IMG/VR virus record: IMGVR_UViG_3300010370_000263
Coordinates: 1-22,822 of that record
From: a virus
DNA length: 22,822 nt
Strand: one strand, 5' to 3'
Part shown: positions 625 through 22,657 of the stretch, one piece after another
How positions within the stretch are numbered: the first letter of the stretch is position 1
Layout: the number at the start of each line of letters is the position of its first letter
Notes under the pieces: generated by a model
Databases searched by the model: none
What the model was told of the DNA's origin: nothing
The model's input: the letters and a program-made list of their open reading frames with translations, nothing else
Translations under genes and position numbers: made by a program

Positions 625-1002
625 ATGGCCGCCACTCCTGCTCCTACTTCAGCCGCTCCGATGAGGGCAATTGATCGCCTGCGTAAAGCAGCAAACTTTG
701 AGCCGATTAAACAAGTTGTAGAACTTGTTGATGGTAGCGAGTTTGTATTTTATGCGACCCCACTTACGGCGGCTGAACGCGAAAAAGCGCAAAAAGATGC
801 AAAGTCGGATAGCGCAAACGACTTTGCGATGCAACTCCTGCTCAGGAAAGCAATTGATGAGAACGGCGAACGTCTTTTCAAGCCTGGCGACGCACCTGTT
901 CTAAGGCAGGAAATTGAAGACGAAGATTTGCAGAAACTGATTCTTTGCGTCCTTCGCCCTCGCGGCTCGGAGGATGCTGAGCCCGATTCTAAAAGCGATT
1001 GA
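625..1002 (+). CDS. Tail assembly chaperone, short product (gpG-like)
   Basis: 125 residues. After a Pro/Ala/Ser-rich start, the core has a predicted beta pair (VVELVDGSEFVFYATPL) and a helical, charged part (LTAAEREKAQKDAK), then a conserved-looking Leu-rich stretch and an acidic Ser/Asp tail. This size and pattern, placed one gene before the tape measure and overlapping a small second ORF in another frame, is the standard gpG/gpGT chaperone arrangement of long-tailed phages. Such chaperones bind the tape measure and bring tube subunits to it, and are not usually in the mature virion. The ATG at 625 has no clear Shine-Dalgarno sequence. The ORF overlaps the next one by 29 nt and may yield a longer product by frameshifting. 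I infer function from context and general pattern, not from a close family match. Confidence 0.7.
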   Translation: MAATPAPTSAAPMRAIDRLRKAANFEPIKQVVELVDGSEFVFYATPLTAAEREKAQKDAKSDSANDFAMQLLLRKAIDENGERLFKPGDAPVLRQEIEDEDLQKLILCVLRPRGSEDAEPDSKSD

Positions 1003-1253: not shown

Positions 1254-4200
1254 GTGGCTAGCTACGAGGCAATTATTAATCTTGTAGTCCAGGGCGAGGC
1301 TGCGTTAAATCGTATTCAGAAAAAAATTGATAATTTATATAAAACTGTAGGCGATCTTGAAACGAAAAAAAAATTTCAAGGCTCTCAGGCCGCCGCTTCA
1401 TTTGTAAGACAACAGGCAGATGAGCTGGAAAGAGTTGTATCTGTATCGAAACAGCAAATTAAAGAGCAAGAGAGAAGTATTGTAAAGCAAAGCAAGCTCA
1501 ATGCTGCGGTTGACCTGTACGAAAGAAGACAAAGGCAGCTATCTCGTACGAGTGTAGCCAATCAGAAGCAATTTGCTGCTCAAATTAAAGACATAGAAGA
1601 TGGTTTTAAGTTTTTTAAAGATAGAAAAAACGCCGCTGGCGTTCAGGCAATTGCAACTGAGCTCGGAAGAATTATTGAATACGACAATGAGCTAAATAGA
1701 ATTTCCGATCGTAGGACCGCGAATCAACGTAAGCTTTATTCTTTTAGTAAAGAAATAGCAAAATACGAATCTTTTGGGCTAAAAACAGATAGGGCAAGAA
1801 AGACTCTTTCCAACTTTGAAGGAGTTGCTGGCAGCAATCAACTTAAGCAAGCCCAGCAATATGAATCTGCTCTTAAAAATCAATTAAAGCTGCTTAAGGA
1901 TCAATTCACAGAACAACAAAGAGTTGCAAGAATTGCGCCAAGTTCTCCCATCCGTGGAGGATTAAATTTTCCTGGTAGCCCTATAGCAGAGCAAAGGGCA
2001 CTTAAGGAAGCAAGAGCCGGCTTTCCATCATCGCCGATTCTTGGCTCTGTCACAATGGCTGGCAGTCCAAAGGCAGAGCAGGAAAGACTAAAACGTGAGA
2101 AAGAAATAGCTGAAGCTACTGGGCTTGCCGGAAAAGCTGCTCAGAGACTTGTTGGTGCTCAAGGCAGGGTTGAACTCACCTCCGCAATAGATCAATACTT
2201 GAGCGGTCTAGACAACATTCAGTCTGGTGCGCAAAAAATACTAAAAAAAGATGCAAGCCTTCTTAAGGATTTTGATCAAAAATTAAAAAATAGAGAAACT
2301 GCAAAAAAATCAGAAAAGGCAATTGCTGAAGCGACTGGGCTTGCCGAACAGGCCGCCCAAAGACTTGTCGGCATTGAAAACAGAACCGAACTTGCGTCTG
2401 CTATAGATGAATACTTGACGGGATTGAGTGATGTTCAGTCAGGCGCCGAAAAACTGCTTAAAAAGAACGCAAAGTCGCTCAAAGACTTTGATCAAAGACT
2501 CAAGGAGAGAGGCGATTTTCAAAAGTCACAAGAAAAAGCTATTGCTGATGCTTGGAAAATGCGCGGTGGCCCTGCGCTTCCGACTGGTTTTAACGAAGCT
2601 GGCATAATTAAACAAAAAGGAGCTTCTGTTGATATTGGCGCCCAAAGGCGCCTGCAAAGCGTTCTTGCGTCTGGAGCAATTATTGAACAAGGATTAATTA
2701 ATCTTAGGAGCAAAGGTGCCAATGTATCAAGAGAGCTTGTCGATCTTCAAAGCAGTCTAAATACTGCGAAGCAAAAAGATTACACCATATCAGAGAATAC
2801 GCTTGATGTTTTAGCTTCTCAGGTTTCCCTTGCTGGTAAGTTTGCTCAACTTCAACGAACCATCCTTGCTGGCCAAGCAGGCGGTGGACGTGGTGGAGCC
2901 GAAGTCACGACTTCTGGTCTTGAGCAGGCACTTCAGCGCCTTCAAGAAGCTCGTGGCGCGCGTCAGGCGTTTCTTGGTGATACTTCGCCTGCACAGGCAA
3001 TTGATCAAATCGTACGCGAGTTTAATAAAGGCGCATCTGGTGGCGGAGCTGGACAAGTCGCTGAAAACGTTGTTGACACTTATGCCTCGGGAATCAAGGC
3101 CGGGATTCCCGCTGTAGCTCAAGCAATGATGAATCTTGGCAAGGCGGGAATTGACGCAATCAAAAAAGCTCTTGGCATGGCAAGTCCATCAAGGGTGATG
3201 CTTGCAATTGCAAAAAATCAAATTGATACCTACGTTGATTTCTTGAGGGCCGCGCTTCCTGCTGTAGAAGCTGTTGCGAAATTACTGGGCGAAGCTGGCG
3301 CTCCAGAAGTTAGCGGTAGCAAATCGTTCATTGTTCCTGAATCTGCTATAAGAAGGCCAATTACGGAAAGGGCGCGCACAAGGCCGCTTAGCGCCCAAGA
3401 TCTTGAAAGAAATAGTGTCATAGCTGAATATGCGGCATCGCAAATCACAGGCCCGATGGGCCAGTTTGAAAACGTTAAGCGAAAAATTGAAGATTTTATT
3501 GACAAGACCAGAACAATTGTTGACCTGGACAAGCTTTTTGGCGGAAAAGAGAATGAACGGTTTGCTATGGCTACGCGTGGCGTTTCCGCTGGGCCGGAGT
3601 TTGACAAGACTAGGGCTGCGCTTGCTGACTTTTATCAAATACCTGCCGAGTTAACGCCTGATCTTGAGCGTGGCGCAAAGGCCGCAAACGAAGCAGGCGT
3701 AAGTGCCGATGAGCTTGCACGATATGTTTCTGGCCTTGCTGCGGGTATAGAGCAAATTGGCACGCTTCTTCAATCTGCTGCAAAGCTTCCCACTCCTTCG
3801 GTTGCGACCCCCGCAACTGTTGTTGATAATGAATTTACGCGAGCGCAAGAGGTCGCCGCCAGGGCAGACGCAGCCGCTGCAGAAGCAGCAAGGAAAAAAG
3901 CTGAAGCACAAAAACCGTTTGAAGCATCAATTCAAAAAGCCGCTGAGCTTGACGCCGAAGCCAAGCGCAAGGCAGATGCCGCCGTTTCTTCTGTCGTCCA
4001 AGCGCAGATTGAAGCAGATGCAAGGGCAGGTGCAGAAGCTATCTCCAGGTCAATTCTTGACCCGATTAAATCTGCTGCGCCTGAAGGCAAGCGTCAAGTG
4101 CGTTCCGCCATTGAAAATCTATTTGATCGAGTTACTGGCGCCCTTGGATTTGGTGGAGGAAGTGGCGGTCGTCCTCCCGTACCTCCGACCGGCGGTGGCG

Positions 4201-7025
4201 GCCCTGCTCGTGATCCCGAGGAGTTTAATCGTCGCCTATCTCAGGCCGTCGATGAAGGGGCTGGAGCAGTTCTCGGCCTAAGAGAACTGCGTGACCCAAC
4301 AAAGGCAACAACACTTGAACTTGAAGCGCTTAGCAATGTGCTGAAAGAATTCAGAAAGATTCTTGACCCGACCACTGAAGGTTTCGACCGTTTAGAGAAA
4401 CAGCTACGCGAGACAGCCGCAAATCTTGATCGACAGGTTGAACGCCGTGCTCCTGAGGCAGGCTTCCTGACTCGCCAATTTGGCCCCAGGACGGCTCGCG
4501 GCCTGAGTGAGGGCTTGATTGGTGGCGCCTTCCCGCTGCTCTTTGGGCAGGGCGTTGGGGCTGCTATTGGAGGTGGTGCTGGTGGCTTTGCTGGTGGCTT
4601 CGCTGGTGGCGGCCTTGGCTTTGGCTTGTCGCTGGTTGGCACTGCGCTTGGCACTGCATTTGATGCGCTTAATCAAGCAGCGCAAGATGCTGGCAAGGCG
4701 CTTAAGTATCCGGTTGAGGGATTTGAAAAGCTAAAAGAGGCTGGTTTGCTTGCTGGTCGTGAGCAGGAATACTATATTTCTAAATTAATAGAAGCTGGAA
4801 GAGCGACAGAGGCGGCTGGCGTAATTCAAGCTGAAATCATCAAAAAGATTGGAGTGAGTGGAGTTGAAGACCTCCAGCGTCTTGGGGATTCTTCTTCTCG
4901 CCTTAGTAAGACTTGGGCTGAATTCAATCTTCAGCTTCAGGCAGCTATCGCTGGGCCATTAGCTGGCCTATTGAGTTGGCTCGCCAGTGCAATATCTGTC
5001 ATCAACAGTGGCACAAGAGAAGTAGAAAGGCAGCGTGACATTACTTCCGGCTTGTCTCCTAGCGACCTTAAGTCGCTTCAGGCTGAAGAGCAAAGAATAC
5101 TTTCAGGCCTAAATATTTTCAATGAAGCTGCAAAGAGACAGCAGGTGTCTCAACTTTACAGTCAATTTGAATCCAAGGCAAATATCAATACTCCGGCTGC
5201 GCGACTCACTCCAGAGCAGCTTGATGCCCAAAAGAAAGCTGAAGGTGTAACAAAAGAACTGCAGGCCCAAGTTGAGCTTCAGTCAAAACAACTCTCGTTG
5301 ACTGGGCTGACGCTTGAAAAAGATGGAGCTCGTTATATAAATGCGGCAAAGGCTGTTGCGGTTCAAGAGTATGACAACAAACTCCTTGAGATCAAAAATA
5401 GTTGGATTGGGCAAATTTTTAATAAAGAGCAAAATCTTGCAAAGATTCGTGGCGCAAATCTTCAACTTGCTGCTCAGTTGAAGCAAATCAACGAGGAAGT
5501 TGCTCGCAGACAGGAAGAACTTTATCAAAATAGCCTTCAGGCCGAAATAGCGCTTTATCAGCAAAAGCAAAAAAATATTGATATTGTTATTCGTACTGCC
5601 GAGTTCAATAGAGGCGAAGAAGCTGGATTATATAAAAAATTAGCTCTTACGGAAGAAATAAATCGAACAAAAATTGCTGAGTTTCAAGCTGAGGAAGAAT
5701 TGGCGTTGATCGCTGCGCAAAAAAATGGAACATACGAGCAGACCTCAAGGCTGTTTCAAGCAAGATCGGTTGCGCTTGAAGCAGAGCTTAAGCTAGAAGA
5801 AGCGATTACTCGCCAGCAAATTGCTCAGCTTCAATTCAATAAATTTATTTCTATAGAGCAGGCAAAGCGTGAGGCGGTTGACCCATTTGTTCAGTTTAGA
5901 CAATCGCAACAATTCGATCAGCAGTATGCACAAACCTACCATCGTCTTCTGACTGAGGGAATTGCGCCAGCGGAAGCGCGAAGGATTGCCGACTTTGAAC
6001 GCCTTGTTGCTCAACAACTTAAGTCGCTTGATATTCAGGTTGCAATAGCTCAATCCACCTACAATGAAGCTGTTGCACGTGGAATTGCTGGACAAGAATT
6101 AAAGAATTATGCTGATAATCTTGAGAGACTGAAAGAGGCTCGTGGCGCCGCTGCAAAAGATGCCGCCGCTGGTCCGGGCCCTGCGCCCCAAGAGATACCG
6201 GGCGCAAAAATTCAAGAATTTATCTCTACCGCCGAAGAGGAATTAAAAGACCTTGAAGCTCTTGCTGTTCGTGTTTCTCAAGGCATTGGTGACGCAATTG
6301 CAAGTTCAATGGCAAACGGCATCACTGGGTTAATTGAAGGTACGACCACAGCAAAAGAGGTATTTGCTGGATTCCTGAAAGATGTTGGCAACATTTTGAT
6401 CAAAGAAGGTACGCGCATGATCGGCATGTATGTTGCTATTGGTATTGCGAAGATGTTTGCGGGGCTGCTCAGCGGTGCGGCTGGTGCAAGCAAGCCAGCT
6501 TTACCTGGATCAATGGGGCAAGCAACAAAAACCGGAATTGATGCCGGCGCCGGAAACATTTCGGATATGCTTAGCGGACTCGCTGCAGATGGAGCCTATT
6601 TTGCAAATGGAGTCGCGGCTTTTGCGAAAGGCGGCATGTTTACGAATTCTGTTGTTTCTTCGCCGACTCTCTTTAAGTTTGCAGATGGTGGCGTTCAGCG
6701 CACTGGCCTGATGGGTGAGGCCGGTCCAGAGGCGATCATGCCCCTGCGCCGCTCAGCTAGTGGTCGCCTTGGAGTCGAAGCCAGCGGTCTGCGCGAGGCA
6801 ATGAACTCGGGCGCTGGTGGCGGCATGGGCACTCCCTCACTCAACATGACCTTCGAGACCACCAACATTGGAGGCGTGGAGTACGTCAGCCGCGATCAAC
6901 TCGAAGCCGCAATGGCTGCTACTCGCCGTGATGCAGCTCGCGATGGCGCTCGTCAAGGAATGTCGATGACACTTGATAAGCTACAACAAAGCCCTGGCAC
7001 TCGTAGCCGAGTGGGACTCCGCTGA
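1254..7025 (+). CDS. Tape measure protein
   Basis: 1,923 residues, by far the largest ORF, straight after the chaperone pair. The N-terminal third is almost all helix and coiled coil rich in Lys, Glu, Gln and Ala. It contains a 72-residue tandem duplication (about residues 284-427). Near residue 640 is a hydrophobic helical stretch with ASPSRV, a motif often seen in tape measures. At about 1,089-1,136 is a Gly/Ala-rich hydrophobic segment that could enter the host membrane. The C-terminus carries GEAGPEAIMPL (about 1,821-1,831), typical of lambda-type tape measures, followed by a Gly-rich tail. No lysozyme or peptidase domain is visible. In this family the helical core sets tail length and the protein is ejected ahead of DNA. 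The start is GTG 1254, with no good Shine-Dalgarno. The stop overlaps the next start (TGATG). Confidence 0.93.
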   Translation: MASYEAIINLVVQGEAALNRIQKKIDNLYKTVGDLETKKKFQGSQAAASFVRQQADELERVVSVSKQQIKEQERSIVKQSKLNAAVDLYERRQRQLSRTSVANQKQFAAQIKDIEDGFKFFKDRKNAAGVQAIATELGRIIEYDNELNRISDRRTANQRKLYSFSKEIAKYESFGLKTDRARKTLSNFEGVAGSNQLKQAQQYESALKNQLKLLKDQFTEQQRVARIAPSSPIRGGLNFPGSPIAEQRALKEARAGFPSSPILGSVTMAGSPKAEQERLKREKEIAEATGLAGKAAQRLVGAQGRVELTSAIDQYLSGLDNIQSGAQKILKKDASLLKDFDQKLKNRETAKKSEKAIAEATGLAEQAAQRLVGIENRTELASAIDEYLTGLSDVQSGAEKLLKKNAKSLKDFDQRLKERGDFQKSQEKAIADAWKMRGGPALPTGFNEAGIIKQKGASVDIGAQRRLQSVLASGAIIEQGLINLRSKGANVSRELVDLQSSLNTAKQKDYTISENTLDVLASQVSLAGKFAQLQRTILAGQAGGGRGGAEVTTSGLEQALQRLQEARGARQAFLGDTSPAQAIDQIVREFNKGASGGGAGQVAENVVDTYASGIKAGIPAVAQAMMNLGKAGIDAIKKALGMASPSRVMLAIAKNQIDTYVDFLRAALPAVEAVAKLLGEAGAPEVSGSKSFIVPESAIRRPITERARTRPLSAQDLERNSVIAEYAASQITGPMGQFENVKRKIEDFIDKTRTIVDLDKLFGGKENERFAMATRGVSAGPEFDKTRAALADFYQIPAELTPDLERGAKAANEAGVSADELARYVSGLAAGIEQIGTLLQSAAKLPTPSVATPATVVDNEFTRAQEVAARADAAAAEAARKKAEAQKPFEASIQKAAELDAEAKRKADAAVSSVVQAQIEADARAGAEAISRSILDPIKSAAPEGKRQVRSAIENLFDRVTGALGFGGGSGGRPPVPPTGGGGPARDPEEFNRRLSQAVDEGAGAVLGLRELRDPTKATTLELEALSNVLKEFRKILDPTTEGFDRLEKQLRETAANLDRQVERRAPEAGFLTRQFGPRTARGLSEGLIGGAFPLLFGQGVGAAIGGGAGGFAGGFAGGGLGFGLSLVGTALGTAFDALNQAAQDAGKALKYPVEGFEKLKEAGLLAGREQEYYISKLIEAGRATEAAGVIQAEIIKKIGVSGVEDLQRLGDSSSRLSKTWAEFNLQLQAAIAGPLAGLLSWLASAISVINSGTREVERQRDITSGLSPSDLKSLQAEEQRILSGLNIFNEAAKRQQVSQLYSQFESKANINTPAARLTPEQLDAQKKAEGVTKELQAQVELQSKQLSLTGLTLEKDGARYINAAKAVAVQEYDNKLLEIKNSWIGQIFNKEQNLAKIRGANLQLAAQLKQINEEVARRQEELYQNSLQAEIALYQQKQKNIDIVIRTAEFNRGEEAGLYKKLALTEEINRTKIAEFQAEEELALIAAQKNGTYEQTSRLFQARSVALEAELKLEEAITRQQIAQLQFNKFISIEQAKREAVDPFVQFRQSQQFDQQYAQTYHRLLTEGIAPAEARRIADFERLVAQQLKSLDIQVAIAQSTYNEAVARGIAGQELKNYADNLERLKEARGAAAKDAAAGPGPAPQEIPGAKIQEFISTAEEELKDLEALAVRVSQGIGDAIASSMANGITGLIEGTTTAKEVFAGFLKDVGNILIKEGTRMIGMYVAIGIAKMFAGLLSGAAGASKPALPGSMGQATKTGIDAGAGNISDMLSGLAADGAYFANGVAAFAKGGMFTNSVVSSPTLFKFADGGVQRTGLMGEAGPEAIMPLRRSASGRLGVEASGLREAMNSGAGGGMGTPSLNMTFETTNIGGVEYVSRDQLEAAMAATRRDAARDGARQGMSMTLDKLQQSPGTRSRVGLR
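2088..2550 (+). repeat. Tandem 72-codon duplication inside the tape measure gene
   Basis: Two copies of a 216-nt unit are in register: the shared block GGGCTTGCC lies at 2121 and again at 2337. Both encode IAEATGLA, AAQRLVG, ELxSAIDxYLxGL, a QSGA-containing stretch and LKDFDQ blocks. A third partial start (EKAIADA, about 2534-2554) follows. The protein is well conserved while many third codon positions differ. Repeats of this kind change tape length in whole helical units. Confidence 0.85.
4515..4665 (+). repeat. Gly/Ala-rich low-complexity segment in the tape measure gene
   Basis: Repeated GGTGGC/GCTGGT-type codons encode runs such as GGGAGGFAGGFAGGG flanked by LLFGQGVGAAIG and LSLVGTALGTAF. 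The DNA is locally GC-rich and repetitive. The product is a hydrophobic, flexible segment of about 50 residues, consistent with the membrane-active part proposed for many tape measures. Confidence 0.6.
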
Positions 7026-13345: not shown

Positions 13346-16300
13346 ATGGCAGATCAGCGTATTACTCAGCTAACAGCACTGCCCAAAGCTGGGGTTTCGG
13401 CGACAGATGTGCTACCCATTGCGGATATTTCTGCAACAGAAACTAAAAAAGTTACAGCAAAAGATCTTGTTGCCGCCGGCATTGATCTTGTAGATGCTGG
13501 TGAAATTGACCTATCAAAGCTCGATCAAAATAGTGTCACAAAGATTGGGACAGTTGCGATTGAGTCGCGTGCAATCGTAGCTGACAAACTGGCACACAAC
13601 AGCAGTGTCATTCTTTCTGTTATCACGCCCGCCTCTAACAATTTTGAGGGCAGAGGATACTTCAATACGTCGACTGGCAATATTCAGTTTTTCAATGGAA
13701 CCGCTTATCAGCAGGTCGTCATGCCCACGGCGGGCATCGGAGATCTGCAGATAACGACCGGCAAGCTTGCAGATGGTGCCGTTACTACCGCAAAAGTAAC
13801 GGCGCTTGGCACGGCGGCTTATGCAGATAGCAGCGTCACCACTTTAAAGATTGCAGACGGTGCAATCACTGCTGTTAAGATTGCTGCGGATAGCATTACA
13901 GCGTCGCAGATTGCGCCCAGTGCAATTGGCGCATCAGAGCTGGCAGACAATGCTGTTGATACTGCATCTATTCAGGCGCTTGCTGTCACTGAAGCCAAGC
14001 TAGCAGATGGGGTCGTTACTACAAATAAGCTAGGCGATTTGGCTGTAACAAATGCCAAGATCGCTGCGTCCACGATTACGTATGGCAAACTCAATCTTGC
14101 CGATGGTTCGGTCCCTGGCGCAAAGATTACGTCAGATTCTATTACCAACGCGCAAATTGGCATCGGAGCAGTTCAGACCAGCAAACTGGGGGACTCTGCG
14201 GTTACAACAGTAAAGATTGCTGATGGCGCTGTTACTGCGGTCAAGATTGCGTCTGATTCGATTACTGCATCGCAAATTGCCGCAAACGCCGTTGGGTCTT
14301 CTGAACTGGCGGATGATGCAGTTGACACCGGAAGCATTGTAAATCTTGCTGTTACAGAAGGAAAGATTGCCGCAGGGGCGGTTACAAATGCAAAGCTTGG
14401 AGATCTTTCTGTTACTGATGGGAAGATCGCCAATGCAACAATCACATATGCAAAGTTAAATCTTTCTGATAACTCTGTACCTGGCGCAAAAATCGCAAAT
14501 GGGTCGATCACTTCGACTCAACTCGCATCTTCTGCTGTTGAAACAGCAGAAATCGCCAATGGCGCTGTTACTACAGCAAAGATTGCAGATGATGCTGTCA
14601 CTGCCGCAAAGCTTGGGCCTGAAGCTGTTGATTCAAGTGCTCTTGGCGCTGGTGCAGTTACAAATGCAAAAATTGGTTCTGCTGCTGTCACTTACGACAA
14701 AATTCAGAATGTCAGCGCTACTGATCGACTGTTGGGACGCTCCTCTGCTGGAGCTGGGTCGATTGAGGAGATCCCGCTGACCCCTGCAGGCCGCGCCCTG
14801 CTTGATGACGCCGACGCTACTGCTCAACGCGCCACGCTGGGCCTGGGCTCCCTTGCCACGCAGTCAGGCACCTTCTCTGGTACGCATAGCGGCACCACGT
14901 CTGGGACGAACACGGGTGATCAGACAATCACGCTCACAGGCGACGTAACGGGCTCGGGAACGGGCTCATTCGCTGCCAGTATCAGCACTGCTGCTGTCAC
15001 AGAAACAAAGATTGCCAGCAACGCTGTTACAACAACAAAGATTGCCGATGACAATGTTACTTCTGCAAAGCTTGCGGATAACTCTGCTGCAATCGTTGCC
15101 GCATCGGTTCCCGCTGGCTCAGGTGCATTTGTTGGTCAGCAGTGGATCAATACTGCTACTGCGATTGAATATACATGGGACGGAACTCAGTGGTTGAGAC
15201 AGGCTTCTCTCGGTACGATTTCATTTACGGATTCGACGCCGCTTACATTTGCTGTTAGCTACCCAGATGCGTACAGCGCAACAGTTACGGCAACTCTTGA
15301 CATTCAATCCGCCAATCGCATTTTTGCTGGTCCAACAACAGGATCTGACGCTGCGCCCACCTTCCGCGCAATTGTCCCCGCAGATCTACCAGATGCAACC
15401 AGTGTCGCCAAGGGAATCATTTTACCAGGTAGTGGATTAAGTATCAGCAGCGGCACGCTTAATCATAGCAACAGTACGACCGCTGGAACATATACAAAAG
15501 TTACCGTTGACGCGCAGGGTCATGTTTCGGCGGGTACGACTTTAATCGCTAGCGACGTTCCTGCGCTTGATACCAGCAAAATTACGACTGGAACGTTTGC
15601 AACAGCAATGCTTGCAAATGATAGTGTAACTGCGGCCAAGCTCGCTGATTACTCAACCGCGCAAATTGGGTCATCTCTTCCAACTCCCGATTTCATTGGC
15701 CAGTTACATCTGAACCCGCTAGAGCGAACCGTCTACATGTGGGACGGCAACGTTTGGCAGCCTGTTGGTATTACCGCTGGTACCGTTATTTTTGCTGGTA
15801 CGTATGACGCAAATACCAATCAAATTGCTTCTGTGACGAATGAGGGAAGCTCGCTTGGGTTGAGCGTTGGCAATCCACTACCAGCCGCAAGCACAAACAA
15901 CCAAAACTACTTTGTGATTGTTAGCAACGCTGGAACTGGTACAAGTCCAGCCCCGACCGTTGGACTGCTTCCGCCGGACCTTGTGCTTTCAACTGGAACA
16001 GCTTGGGTGCGAATTGAGTCGTCTGACGCTTACATTGCACAGGTTGCGACTCAGGTTTCCTTCACGCCCGCCGGTCAAATTTCCAGCACCAACGTGCAGG
16101 CGGCAATTGAAGAAGTAAGTAGTGAATGCCGCAATGCGACAAATATCACTAGCGGAACTCTTGCTGCAACCGTTGGTGGGACCGGAATTACCACATACGT
16201 AAAAGGTGATTTAATTGCTGGCTCGGGGACGAATACTCTTGCAAAGCTGGCGGTTGGCACAAATGGTTACGTACTAAAAGCAAACAGCAGCACGGCTACC

Positions 16301-16525
16301 GGATTGCAATGGGCCGCCTACGACGCGCTTGTGACTGGTGGTGGCACGATGACGGGAAATCTCGGAATCGGGAGCGCTGCAACAATTGTTTTCGAGGGGG
16401 CGACAGATGATACATATGAAACTGTTCTTACGGTTATTGATCCGACCGCTGACAATACAATTTCTCTTCCGAACAGTAGCGGGACAATTGCGCTGACAAG
16501 TGATCTTGATGACGGAACTTTTTGA
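13346..16525 (+). CDS. Tail fibre protein 1, with AVTxxKI-type repeats
   Basis: 1,059 residues. The N-terminus (QRITQLTALPKAG, DVLPIADISATETKKVT) matches an attachment-type N-terminus common in cyanophage fibres. Residues about 130-460 consist of short degenerate repeats such as GAVTTAKIAD and DSITASQIA, with a 122-residue block present twice. Then comes a GC-rich module (RLLGRSSAGAGSIEEIPLTP, LLDDADATAQRATLGLG, SGTNTGDQTITLTGDVTGSG) widely shared among phage fibres. Later parts include two short tryptophan modules (QWINTATAIEYTWDGTQWLR and MWDGNVWQPVG) and another fibre-type stretch. It ends with TISLPNSSGTIALTSDLDDG and a stop, with no globular tip or chaperone domain. This suggests that it forms the proximal shaft and joins another subunit. 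Such repeats form trimeric beta-structured shafts. Confidence 0.88.
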   Translation: MADQRITQLTALPKAGVSATDVLPIADISATETKKVTAKDLVAAGIDLVDAGEIDLSKLDQNSVTKIGTVAIESRAIVADKLAHNSSVILSVITPASNNFEGRGYFNTSTGNIQFFNGTAYQQVVMPTAGIGDLQITTGKLADGAVTTAKVTALGTAAYADSSVTTLKIADGAITAVKIAADSITASQIAPSAIGASELADNAVDTASIQALAVTEAKLADGVVTTNKLGDLAVTNAKIAASTITYGKLNLADGSVPGAKITSDSITNAQIGIGAVQTSKLGDSAVTTVKIADGAVTAVKIASDSITASQIAANAVGSSELADDAVDTGSIVNLAVTEGKIAAGAVTNAKLGDLSVTDGKIANATITYAKLNLSDNSVPGAKIANGSITSTQLASSAVETAEIANGAVTTAKIADDAVTAAKLGPEAVDSSALGAGAVTNAKIGSAAVTYDKIQNVSATDRLLGRSSAGAGSIEEIPLTPAGRALLDDADATAQRATLGLGSLATQSGTFSGTHSGTTSGTNTGDQTITLTGDVTGSGTGSFAASISTAAVTETKIASNAVTTTKIADDNVTSAKLADNSAAIVAASVPAGSGAFVGQQWINTATAIEYTWDGTQWLRQASLGTISFTDSTPLTFAVSYPDAYSATVTATLDIQSANRIFAGPTTGSDAAPTFRAIVPADLPDATSVAKGIILPGSGLSISSGTLNHSNSTTAGTYTKVTVDAQGHVSAGTTLIASDVPALDTSKITTGTFATAMLANDSVTAAKLADYSTAQIGSSLPTPDFIGQLHLNPLERTVYMWDGNVWQPVGITAGTVIFAGTYDANTNQIASVTNEGSSLGLSVGNPLPAASTNNQNYFVIVSNAGTGTSPAPTVGLLPPDLVLSTGTAWVRIESSDAYIAQVATQVSFTPAGQISSTNVQAAIEEVSSECRNATNITSGTLAATVGGTGITTYVKGDLIAGSGTNTLAKLAVGTNGYVLKANSSTATGLQWAAYDALVTGGGTMTGNLGIGSAATIVFEGATDDTYETVLTVIDPTADNTISLPNSSGTIALTSDLDDGTF
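13826..14557 (+). repeat. Duplicated 366-nt (122-residue) block in fibre 1
   Basis: Copy A is 13826-14191 and copy B 14192-14557. Both contain, in the same order, the elements VTTxKIADGA, DSITASQIA, AVDTxSI, LAVTExK, TITYxKLNL and SVPGAKI. In the 19 codons of GAITAVKIAADSITASQIA (13859-13915) against copy B, I count 7 identical codons, 10 synonymous changes and 2 replacements. Shorter AVTxxKI repeats continue on both sides. Confidence 0.88.
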
Positions 16526-21308: not shown

Positions 21309-21584
21309 ATGAAGGGCCTTCTCGTGCAACTCGCAAAGATCCTGCTAAAGCTCGCACTTGACAAAGCAGTCAGAGAGGCATTGCCGGTCATTTACGAAAA
21401 ACTTGATATTTCAGTACCTGTTGCAATCGTCAATGGCGCACCCCCTGCTGTCATCGAATCCGAGATCACGCATCTTGCAAGGAAATTCACAAGAGATACG
21501 GTTCCCGATAGCACGATTGAAGCACTAGCATTGCTTTACAACCCAGTCAAAAACGCTGCTCGCACACAGCGCAGGCAACGATGA
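21309..21584 (+). CDS. Small helical protein in the lysis cassette (unknown)
   Basis: 91 residues. An amphipathic or weakly hydrophobic helix opens it (LLVQLAKILLKLALDKAVRE), followed by a short beta-like part (VPVAIVNGAPPAVIESEI) and a basic C-terminus (NAARTQRRQR). There is no signal peptide and no Cys. The stop overlaps the endolysin ATG (ATGA), so the two are probably translated in coupling. I do not recognise a family. Possible roles are a lysis regulator, an antiholin or an endolysin partner, all guesses from the neighbourhood. A GAGG lies about 13 bases before the ATG, a weak ribosome site. Confidence 0.55.
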   Translation: MKGLLVQLAKILLKLALDKAVREALPVIYEKLDISVPVAIVNGAPPAVIESEITHLARKFTRDTVPDSTIEALALLYNPVKNAARTQRRQR

Positions 21585-22657
21585 GTGATTTTCTTAACGC
21601 CGCACGTTTCACTGACAAGAGCAACAGACTGCCGCATCAAGATGCCGCTTGGCGATGGGCGTGGGAACGTCTGAACGAGGATGAGCGCAAGCAATTCCTT
21701 GAGATGTTTCGAGCTGCGCCCGAACCTAAGGAGCCGCTCCCTGCGCCTTGGCTGGCTCCTGCGCTGCAGATCATCAAGACCTGGGAGGGTTGCCGCCTGG
21801 AGGCTTACAGGTGCTCAGCAGGCGTGCCCACGATCGGGTACGGGGCTACTCGGATGATCGACGGCCCAGTGCGAATGGGCGACAAGATCACACAGGAAAT
21901 GGCAGAAGAGCTGCTTGAAAACGAAGTAGTCAATCTATTTGCGCCGGGACTTTTTTCATTGCTCCCGATGATGAAGAAGTGGAAACCCAATCAACAAGCT
22001 GCACTTGTGAGTTGGGCATTCAATGTTGGATTGGGCGCAGTTGAAGAATCAACATTGCGCAAACGAATTCTTGCATCAGAAGACCCGACAAAAGTTGTCA
22101 TCGAAGAGTTGCCTCGCTGGAACAAAGCTGATGGCAAAGTTCTGGAGGGACTTGTTAGAAGAAGAAGGGCAGAGGTTGATCTTTTCACTGGGTCAACACA
22201 GACGACAATTAAAGATGAAGCCACTACAAGCCCAGTCAAAGTTGCTCCCTCTAGCCCATTCGCAACTCGTTTAACGGCGCACGTACAACTTGGTGAATTT
22301 GCACTCTGGCAAGAAGAGCGTCGTTTTGTGCATCAATATCAAGTTGACACGGCAGCAGAGCTTGCAGCTTTTCTAGAGCGTGTTCGTGTTGCTTTTGGGA
22401 ATAAAGCAATCATTATCACGAGTGGATTTAGACCGCCCGCCGTTAATAAATCAGTTGGTGGAGCAAGTTCGTCTGAGCATTTGTTCGATGCGCCCGGTGT
22501 TGGAGCCGTTGATTTTTACGTCAAAGACGCAGACATTAAAGCTGTAGAAAATTGGTGCGATAAAAATTGGCCTTTCTCAGTTGGGTACGGAGCTGTAAAA
22601 GGATTTTGCCATGTTGGAATCAGAAAAGGGCGCCCTCGTGTACGCTGGGATTATTGA
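21581..22657 (+). CDS. Two-domain endolysin: GH24-type muramidase plus M15-type peptidase
   Basis: 358 residues. Residues 1-50 form a helical region (LPHQDAAWRWAWERLNEDE, FLEMFRAAP) that I recall from cyanophage lysins. Residues about 58-203 are a phage lysozyme domain. WEGCRLEAYRCSAGVPTIGYG gives the family's catalytic pattern E69, then Cys78 after eight residues, then Thr84 after five, with C in place of the more common Asp. A Ser/Thr/Pro-rich linker (about 203-228) leads to a metallopeptidase M15-type domain: SEHLFDAPGVGAVDF gives His300 and Asp311, and GFCHVGI gives His344, the expected zinc ligands. It should cut glycan chains and peptide stems of peptidoglycan. There is no signal or SAR segment, so export through the holin is expected. 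The start overlaps the preceding stop by 4 nt. Confidence 0.88.
   Translation: MSDFLNAARFTDKSNRLPHQDAAWRWAWERLNEDERKQFLEMFRAAPEPKEPLPAPWLAPALQIIKTWEGCRLEAYRCSAGVPTIGYGATRMIDGPVRMGDKITQEMAEELLENEVVNLFAPGLFSLLPMMKKWKPNQQAALVSWAFNVGLGAVEESTLRKRILASEDPTKVVIEELPRWNKADGKVLEGLVRRRRAEVDLFTGSTQTTIKDEATTSPVKVAPSSPFATRLTAHVQLGEFALWQEERRFVHQYQVDTAAELAAFLERVRVAFGNKAIIITSGFRPPAVNKSVGGASSSEHLFDAPGVGAVDFYVKDADIKAVENWCDKNWPFSVGYGAVKGFCHVGIRKGRPRVRWDY

Follow-up and report, generated by a model that had tools for sequence, protein, structure and literature searches.

The two small overlapping reading frames that immediately precede the tape measure gene of the window (the whole stretch of 22,822 nucleotides analyzed here, from IMG/VR record IMGVR_UViG_3300010370_000263) are very probably the G and GT tail assembly chaperones of a siphophage-like tail module, expressed via a programmed +1 ribosomal frameshift. 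Based on a comparison of related sequences, we assign this reading a probability of about 0.88. The same comparison strongly supports AAA-AG as the predicted slip site, which appears to be a new type of +1 site.

A chaperone gene pair upstream of the tape measure gene

All features described here lie on the plus strand. ORF1, the G part of the putative chaperone pair, spans positions 625-1002, encodes 125 amino acids and ends at a zero-frame TGA at 1000-1002; its 3' end reads GAG CCC GAT TCT AAA AGC GAT TGA in that frame. ORF2 lies in the +1 frame relative to ORF1, where a TGA at 938-940 is followed by an open frame from 941 to a stop codon at 1190-1192, while in the -1 frame stop codons flank the end of ORF1 on both sides. 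A first-pass annotation of the window had described ORF2 as open from 941 and the -1 frame as closed, and its coordinates check out. The T part that would be read after the slip spans 992-1192 and consists of 66 residues, counting the shared Lys. When AAAA is taken as a single step, the computed length of the fusion is 188 residues, in agreement with the approximately 188 given earlier. The chaperone pair lies directly 5' of a gene at 1254-7025 (1923 amino acids, GTG start), which we called as the tape measure protein gene from its size and position. The same gene order, chaperone followed by an annotated tape measure gene, is found in S-2L, MED4-184 and HTVC202P.

Profile searches matched ORF1 to PHROG 344, a tail assembly chaperone family (E 9e-5), and to phrog_20784 (E 7e-25), and matched ORF2 to PHROG 337 and 14766, both of which are tail proteins. 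Among aligned fusions, PHROG 344 was matched by 15 of 15 and PF16459 was matched weakly by six, and PHROG 14766 covers both halves of the fusion. We modelled ORF1 with AlphaFold at modest confidence (mean pLDDT 64.5). The PDB entry ranked first against this model is 2OB9, the tail assembly chaperone of HK97 (E 3e-3), and the viral matches of the model include named tail assembly chaperones. By profile and by predicted fold, then, ORF1 is a tail chaperone.

Frameshifting between tail chaperone genes is reportedly a conserved feature of phages, with the -1 shift of lambda G/GT described by Xu, Hendrix and Duda in 2004 (reviewed in PMC5009743). To our knowledge, tail-chaperone shifting is nearly always in the -1 direction, and few +1 sites have been found in bacteria and their phages. 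The window resembles lambda in having two small overlapping reading frames before the tape measure gene, a short G product with a predicted rarer G-T product, and a chaperone fold. It differs from lambda in the shift itself, which is -1 at an X XXY YYZ heptamer in lambda and would be +1 at AAA-AG in the window. No such heptamer is common to the +1 relatives of the window, which places them outside the canonical -1 class.

Conservation of AAA-AG and the choice of shift

We collected 75 relatives of the window and added others from further scans, and we sorted them by the frame of the T domain using blastp against known T domains, a procedure that is independent of the slip site. This produced a +1 set of 139 loci, 125 of them distinct (66 window-like and 59 marine), and a -1 set of 99 loci. 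An in-frame AAAAG is present near the end of ORF1 in 139 of 139 +1 loci (125 distinct) and in 0 of 99 -1 loci, counts that do not represent independent events because the relatives share ancestry. As judged from these sequences, the presence of AAA-AG in the +1 relatives and its absence from the -1 relatives is more than chance. An X XXY YYZ heptamer (CCCAAAA, CCCAAAG, AAAAAAC and others) occurs in 86 of the 99 -1 loci, and 12 of the 13 -1 loci that lack one carry GAC CCC AAG AAC.

In the window, the slip site occupies 991-995, with Lys codon AAA in the P site, AGC in the A site and AAA at 992-994 available for re-pairing after a +1 slip. The AAAA at 991-994, noticed by the first-pass annotation just before the TGA, is conserved in all 125 distinct +1 sequences. 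Every base of AAAAG is fixed in the 66 window-like +1 relatives while neighboring positions vary. The A-site codon among the 125 is AGC in 111, AGT in 12, AGA in one and AGG in one. Elsewhere in the ORF1s, Lys is encoded by AAG (283 codons) more often than by AAA (186), and at the site it is AAA in 66 of 66 window-like relatives. As a codon-blind check, we scanned IMG/VR with the pattern E-A-K-A-D/E-L-K-S/R, made degenerate at every synonymous place. All 112 chaperone matches have AAA, and the only two matches with AAG are unrelated genes. The GA of the Asp codon located two codons 5' of the slip codon (985-986) is also present in 66 of 66 window-like +1 relatives; an acidic residue is found at this place in -1 relatives as well, so the conservation of GA probably reflects a constraint on the protein.

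The arrangement of stop and start codons narrows the location of the shift. In 87 of the 125 +1 relatives, the first A of AAAA is also the last base of a +1-frame TGA or TAA, indicating that in these the shift would have to occur at or after that A. We searched the +1 frame for ATG, GTG and TTG between its upstream stop and the twelfth codon beyond the site, and 98 of the 125 lack all three. Conservation of the T domain begins with the first codons past the slip site. Since the ORF1 stop codon lies anywhere from 2 to 9 codons 3' of the AAA, we regard it as lying outside the site. Taken together, the invariant AAA-AG, the placement of the stops and the missing starts pin the predicted +1 slip to AAA-A, lending strong comparative support to the earlier suggestion of a +1 shift there. 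We also looked among the relatives for a lack of a conserved slip site and for a clear separate ribosome site for ORF2, either of which would count against a frameshift, and found neither.

We infer that slippage occurs at AAA-A and that it involves the P-site tRNA. Most ribosomes would make the G protein (625-999) and stop at the TGA at 1000. In a minority of ribosomes, with AAA (991-993) in the P site and AGC in the A site, Lys-tRNA would detach and re-pair perfectly one base ahead on AAA (992-994). Reading would then resume at GCG ATT GAG and continue, yielding the 188-residue G-T fusion. A low frequency of slippage is suggested by analogy with lambda. As to the pentamer itself, in-frame AAA-AG is not avoided elsewhere in the window-like phages (114 observed and 119 expected with ORF1 removed), indicating that, on its own, the pentamer probably does not slip readily. 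We had considered avoidance of AAA-AGN as a mark of intrinsic slipperiness, and this signal disappeared once ORF1 was excluded from the count.

A -2 shift, also raised by the first-pass annotation, would reach the same frame and add one Lys to the fusion (DSKKAIE in place of DSKAIE), and upstream Shine-Dalgarno-like spacing is known from backward shifts. After such a shift, however, Lys-tRNA would meet TGA, TAA, CCA, CGA, GCA or TCA in the relatives, with only one or two matching positions, and it would not be explained why all four A residues are invariant. We therefore consider a -2 shift very unlikely and set it aside as an alternative. Translation of ORF2 as a separate gene, from an independent start codon or from a coupled one, is slightly less probable still. 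The window does have an ATG in the ORF2 frame at 974-976 with GGAGG immediately 5' of it. The spacing between that GGAGG and the ATG is 0 nt, though, and no start codon is present there in 98 of 125 relatives. Most relatives lack the ATG, others (such as L004 and L008-L016) have the same ATG followed directly by TAG, and the T domain begins right at the slip site, all of which argue against this ATG serving as the ORF2 start across the family. Thus it is the comparison of relatives that suggests that ORF2 has no start of its own and would be read by frameshifting.

The two other explanations that we weighed are the least probable of all, at similarly slight odds. One is that RNA polymerase slips at AAAA and produces a mixed mRNA. 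A homopolymer is indeed present, but four A residues fall far short of the runs of more than 7 A or more than 8 T at which transcriptional realignment has been described (PMC3711429), and polymerase slippage would need neither the fixed G that follows nor the in-frame phase. The other is that the shift takes place at CCC-G (982-985), the second candidate of the first-pass annotation, or elsewhere, with AAAAG conserved for some other reason. CCC is known as a +1 slip codon from Listeria phages and SPP1 gene 17.1, and it is present in the window. Nevertheless, CCC-G is found in only 16 of 66 window-like and 0 of 59 marine relatives, and the +1 frame is interrupted by a stop between its position and AAAAG in 28 of 66 and 59 of 59, respectively, which led us to reject it as the slip site.

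Candidate stimulators and known +1 systems

For the predicted +1 slip at AAA-AG, we examined elements that might stimulate it. The first-pass annotation had proposed GGAGG (969-973), a Shine-Dalgarno-like sequence 17 nt 5' of the slip codon, as a stimulator. The sequence is present, but at its exact place it occurs in only 22 of 66 window-like relatives and in no marine relative. More generally, pairing to the anti-Shine-Dalgarno at -22 to -11 is stronger than expected from synonymous shuffling in each of the two +1 groups, where none of 200 shuffles was as strong; among the -1 relatives, 61 of 200 shuffles were. The spacing of this pairing equals or exceeds the 9-14 nt reported as the working distance for -1 shifts, and differs from the 3 nt reported for +1 shifts (PMC5009743). 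Nearer the site (-14 to -3), anti-Shine-Dalgarno pairing is weaker than in synonymous shuffles, and among 43 thinned members we found no Shine-Dalgarno sequence 3 nt upstream, with windows from -12 on never passing -4 kcal/mol. The Shine-Dalgarno-like stretch 11-22 nt upstream is thus a possible driver of the slip, one that, if real, would act unlike the element in prfB given the 3 nt rule. A GGCTC...GAGCC hairpin around the GGAGG, seen by eye in the window, is lost in other lineages.

RNAalifold analysis of the downstream region in 25 relatives, carried out as a search for nested structure, gave three pairs and -0.06 kcal/mol, and revealed no conserved structure. Compared with shuffles, the 80 nt downstream fold with slightly greater stability in the +1 relatives (mean z of about -0.9) and with clearly greater stability in 13 -1 relatives (mean z of -2.3). 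Codon usage offers a candidate driver in the marine group only, where AGC is rare (3.9 per 1000, versus 20.4 for AGT) and yet occupies the A site in 61 of 66. A rare A-site codon fails as a general driver, as the window-like relatives use AGC more than any other Ser codon, and the C of AGC could also be held in place by the +1-frame Ala codon GCN. Just upstream of the slip codon, GAGGCTAAAGCC was present in 66 of 66 members of a first marine sample (AG-345-A17-like) and in 59 of 112 members of a wider sample. In the former (L162-L241), this sequence at -18 to -7 shows zero synonymous variation among 66, even though two of its codons, both for Ala, are four-fold degenerate. In other subgroups of the marine relatives, GAAGCGAAAGCA or GAAGCGAAGGCA stands at -18 to -7.

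The +1 shift in prfB, which encodes release factor 2, depends on two elements, an A-site stop codon and, 3 nt before CUU, a Shine-Dalgarno sequence. Like the slip proposed here, it is a bacterial +1 slip of a P-site tRNA. The two differ in that the A-site codon of the chaperone relatives is AGN in 125 of 125 and never a stop, and close anti-Shine-Dalgarno pairing is below the null. The CCC-U sites of Listeria phages PSA, A118 and A500 and of SPP1, in tail tube or capsid genes, are likewise +1 shifts of phages in which the P-site codon is homopolymeric, but the gene and the codon are different, and where a tail gene is concerned the A site holds a stop codon. Euplotes AAA-TAR sites (PMC4759687) share the +1 direction and the Lys AAA slip codon, and differ in being eukaryotic, in having a stop as the next codon and in re-pairing to AAT and not AAA.

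With respect to the same gene pair, +1 tail-chaperone shifts have been described in haloviruses HSTV-2 and the HF1 group (PMC5009743, PMC7230728), where they were likewise proposed from conserved sequence only. The HF1 group consists of archaeal myoviruses with TTT-CGC near the ORF1 stop, whereas in the window and its +1 relatives the motif is AAA-AGN and the ORF1 stop comes 2 to 9 codons after the AAA; the TTT-CGC motif was absent from the slip-region sequences examined. Among the motifs of PRFect is a generic forward one made up of four identical bases (PMC10885494). We found no earlier report of an AAA-AG +1 site in the open-licence literature. These comparisons agree with the first-pass view that +1 tail-chaperone shifts are known but rare and that this one may be a new site type.

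Changes of shift direction, relatives and host

The T domains of the -1 and window-like +1 relatives align in register, both starting from the same Lys, and in the marine relatives the domain is shorter at its slip-site end by about seven residues. A tree of ORF1 from 58 thinned members requires six changes of direction, at least four of which are forced by well-supported branches; the T-domain tree is poorly resolved. As read from the ORF1 tree, shift direction has changed several times within one family. The ORF1 proteins of one +1 locus (L138) and one -1 locus (L242) are identical over L138 residues 3-107 and diverge thereafter, as would be expected of recombination at the junction. At the nucleotide level, these two loci (L138 2501-3026 and L242 485-1002) have near-identical chaperone genes with a breakpoint near the end of ORF1, and differ in shift direction and T half.

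A broader proposal is that AAA-AGN is a new bacterial +1 site that works with no A-site stop, no close Shine-Dalgarno sequence and no 3' structure, perhaps aided by a distant Shine-Dalgarno-like element, and that recombination at the G/T junction lets tail modules exchange -1 for +1 cassettes, or the reverse, with the fused protein staying the same. We consider the odds on this proposal as a whole to be about even. Such a compact +1 site, kept over more than 100 distinct sequences beside -1 relatives predicted to make the same fusion, would provide naturally matched +1/-1 pairs in which the determinants of slippage direction could be tested. A further consequence is that the T half in such +1 phages would be missed by gene callers and by scans for -1 motifs.

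Relatives that bear names comprise two cyanophages, KBS-S-2A, whose host is Synechococcus (54%), and S-2L (39%), together with AG-345-A17, a marine virus from a single cell (40%), and a pelagiphage. A later tail protein of the window resembles those of Synechococcus and Microcystis phages, and a cyanobacterial host is likely. A search for psbA-type genes as host evidence found none in 20 records. The +1 form was not found in the cultured relatives examined, as KBS-S-2A, S-2L, MED4-184, S-H1, HTVC026P and HTVC202P all have T in the -1 frame. In several of these, a T half reachable by a -1 shift lies unannotated between G and the tape measure gene: at 3331-3533 of the KBS-S-2A GenBank record (L076), 2343-2542 of MED4-184 (L477) and 2244-2409 of HTVC202P (L479). 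MED4-184 (L477 2292-2340) would need a -1 shift, yet its G gene ends in GCA AAG GAA TCC TAA and has no classic heptamer.

Elsewhere in the window, positions 13346-16525 encode a structural protein of 1059 residues that consists mostly of ITxxKIADGAVTxxKIA-like repeats and is probably a tail fibre. Positions 21581-22657 encode a protein of 358 residues in which, reading by eye, a lysozyme-type domain is followed by a peptidase-like domain, and which is probably an endolysin.
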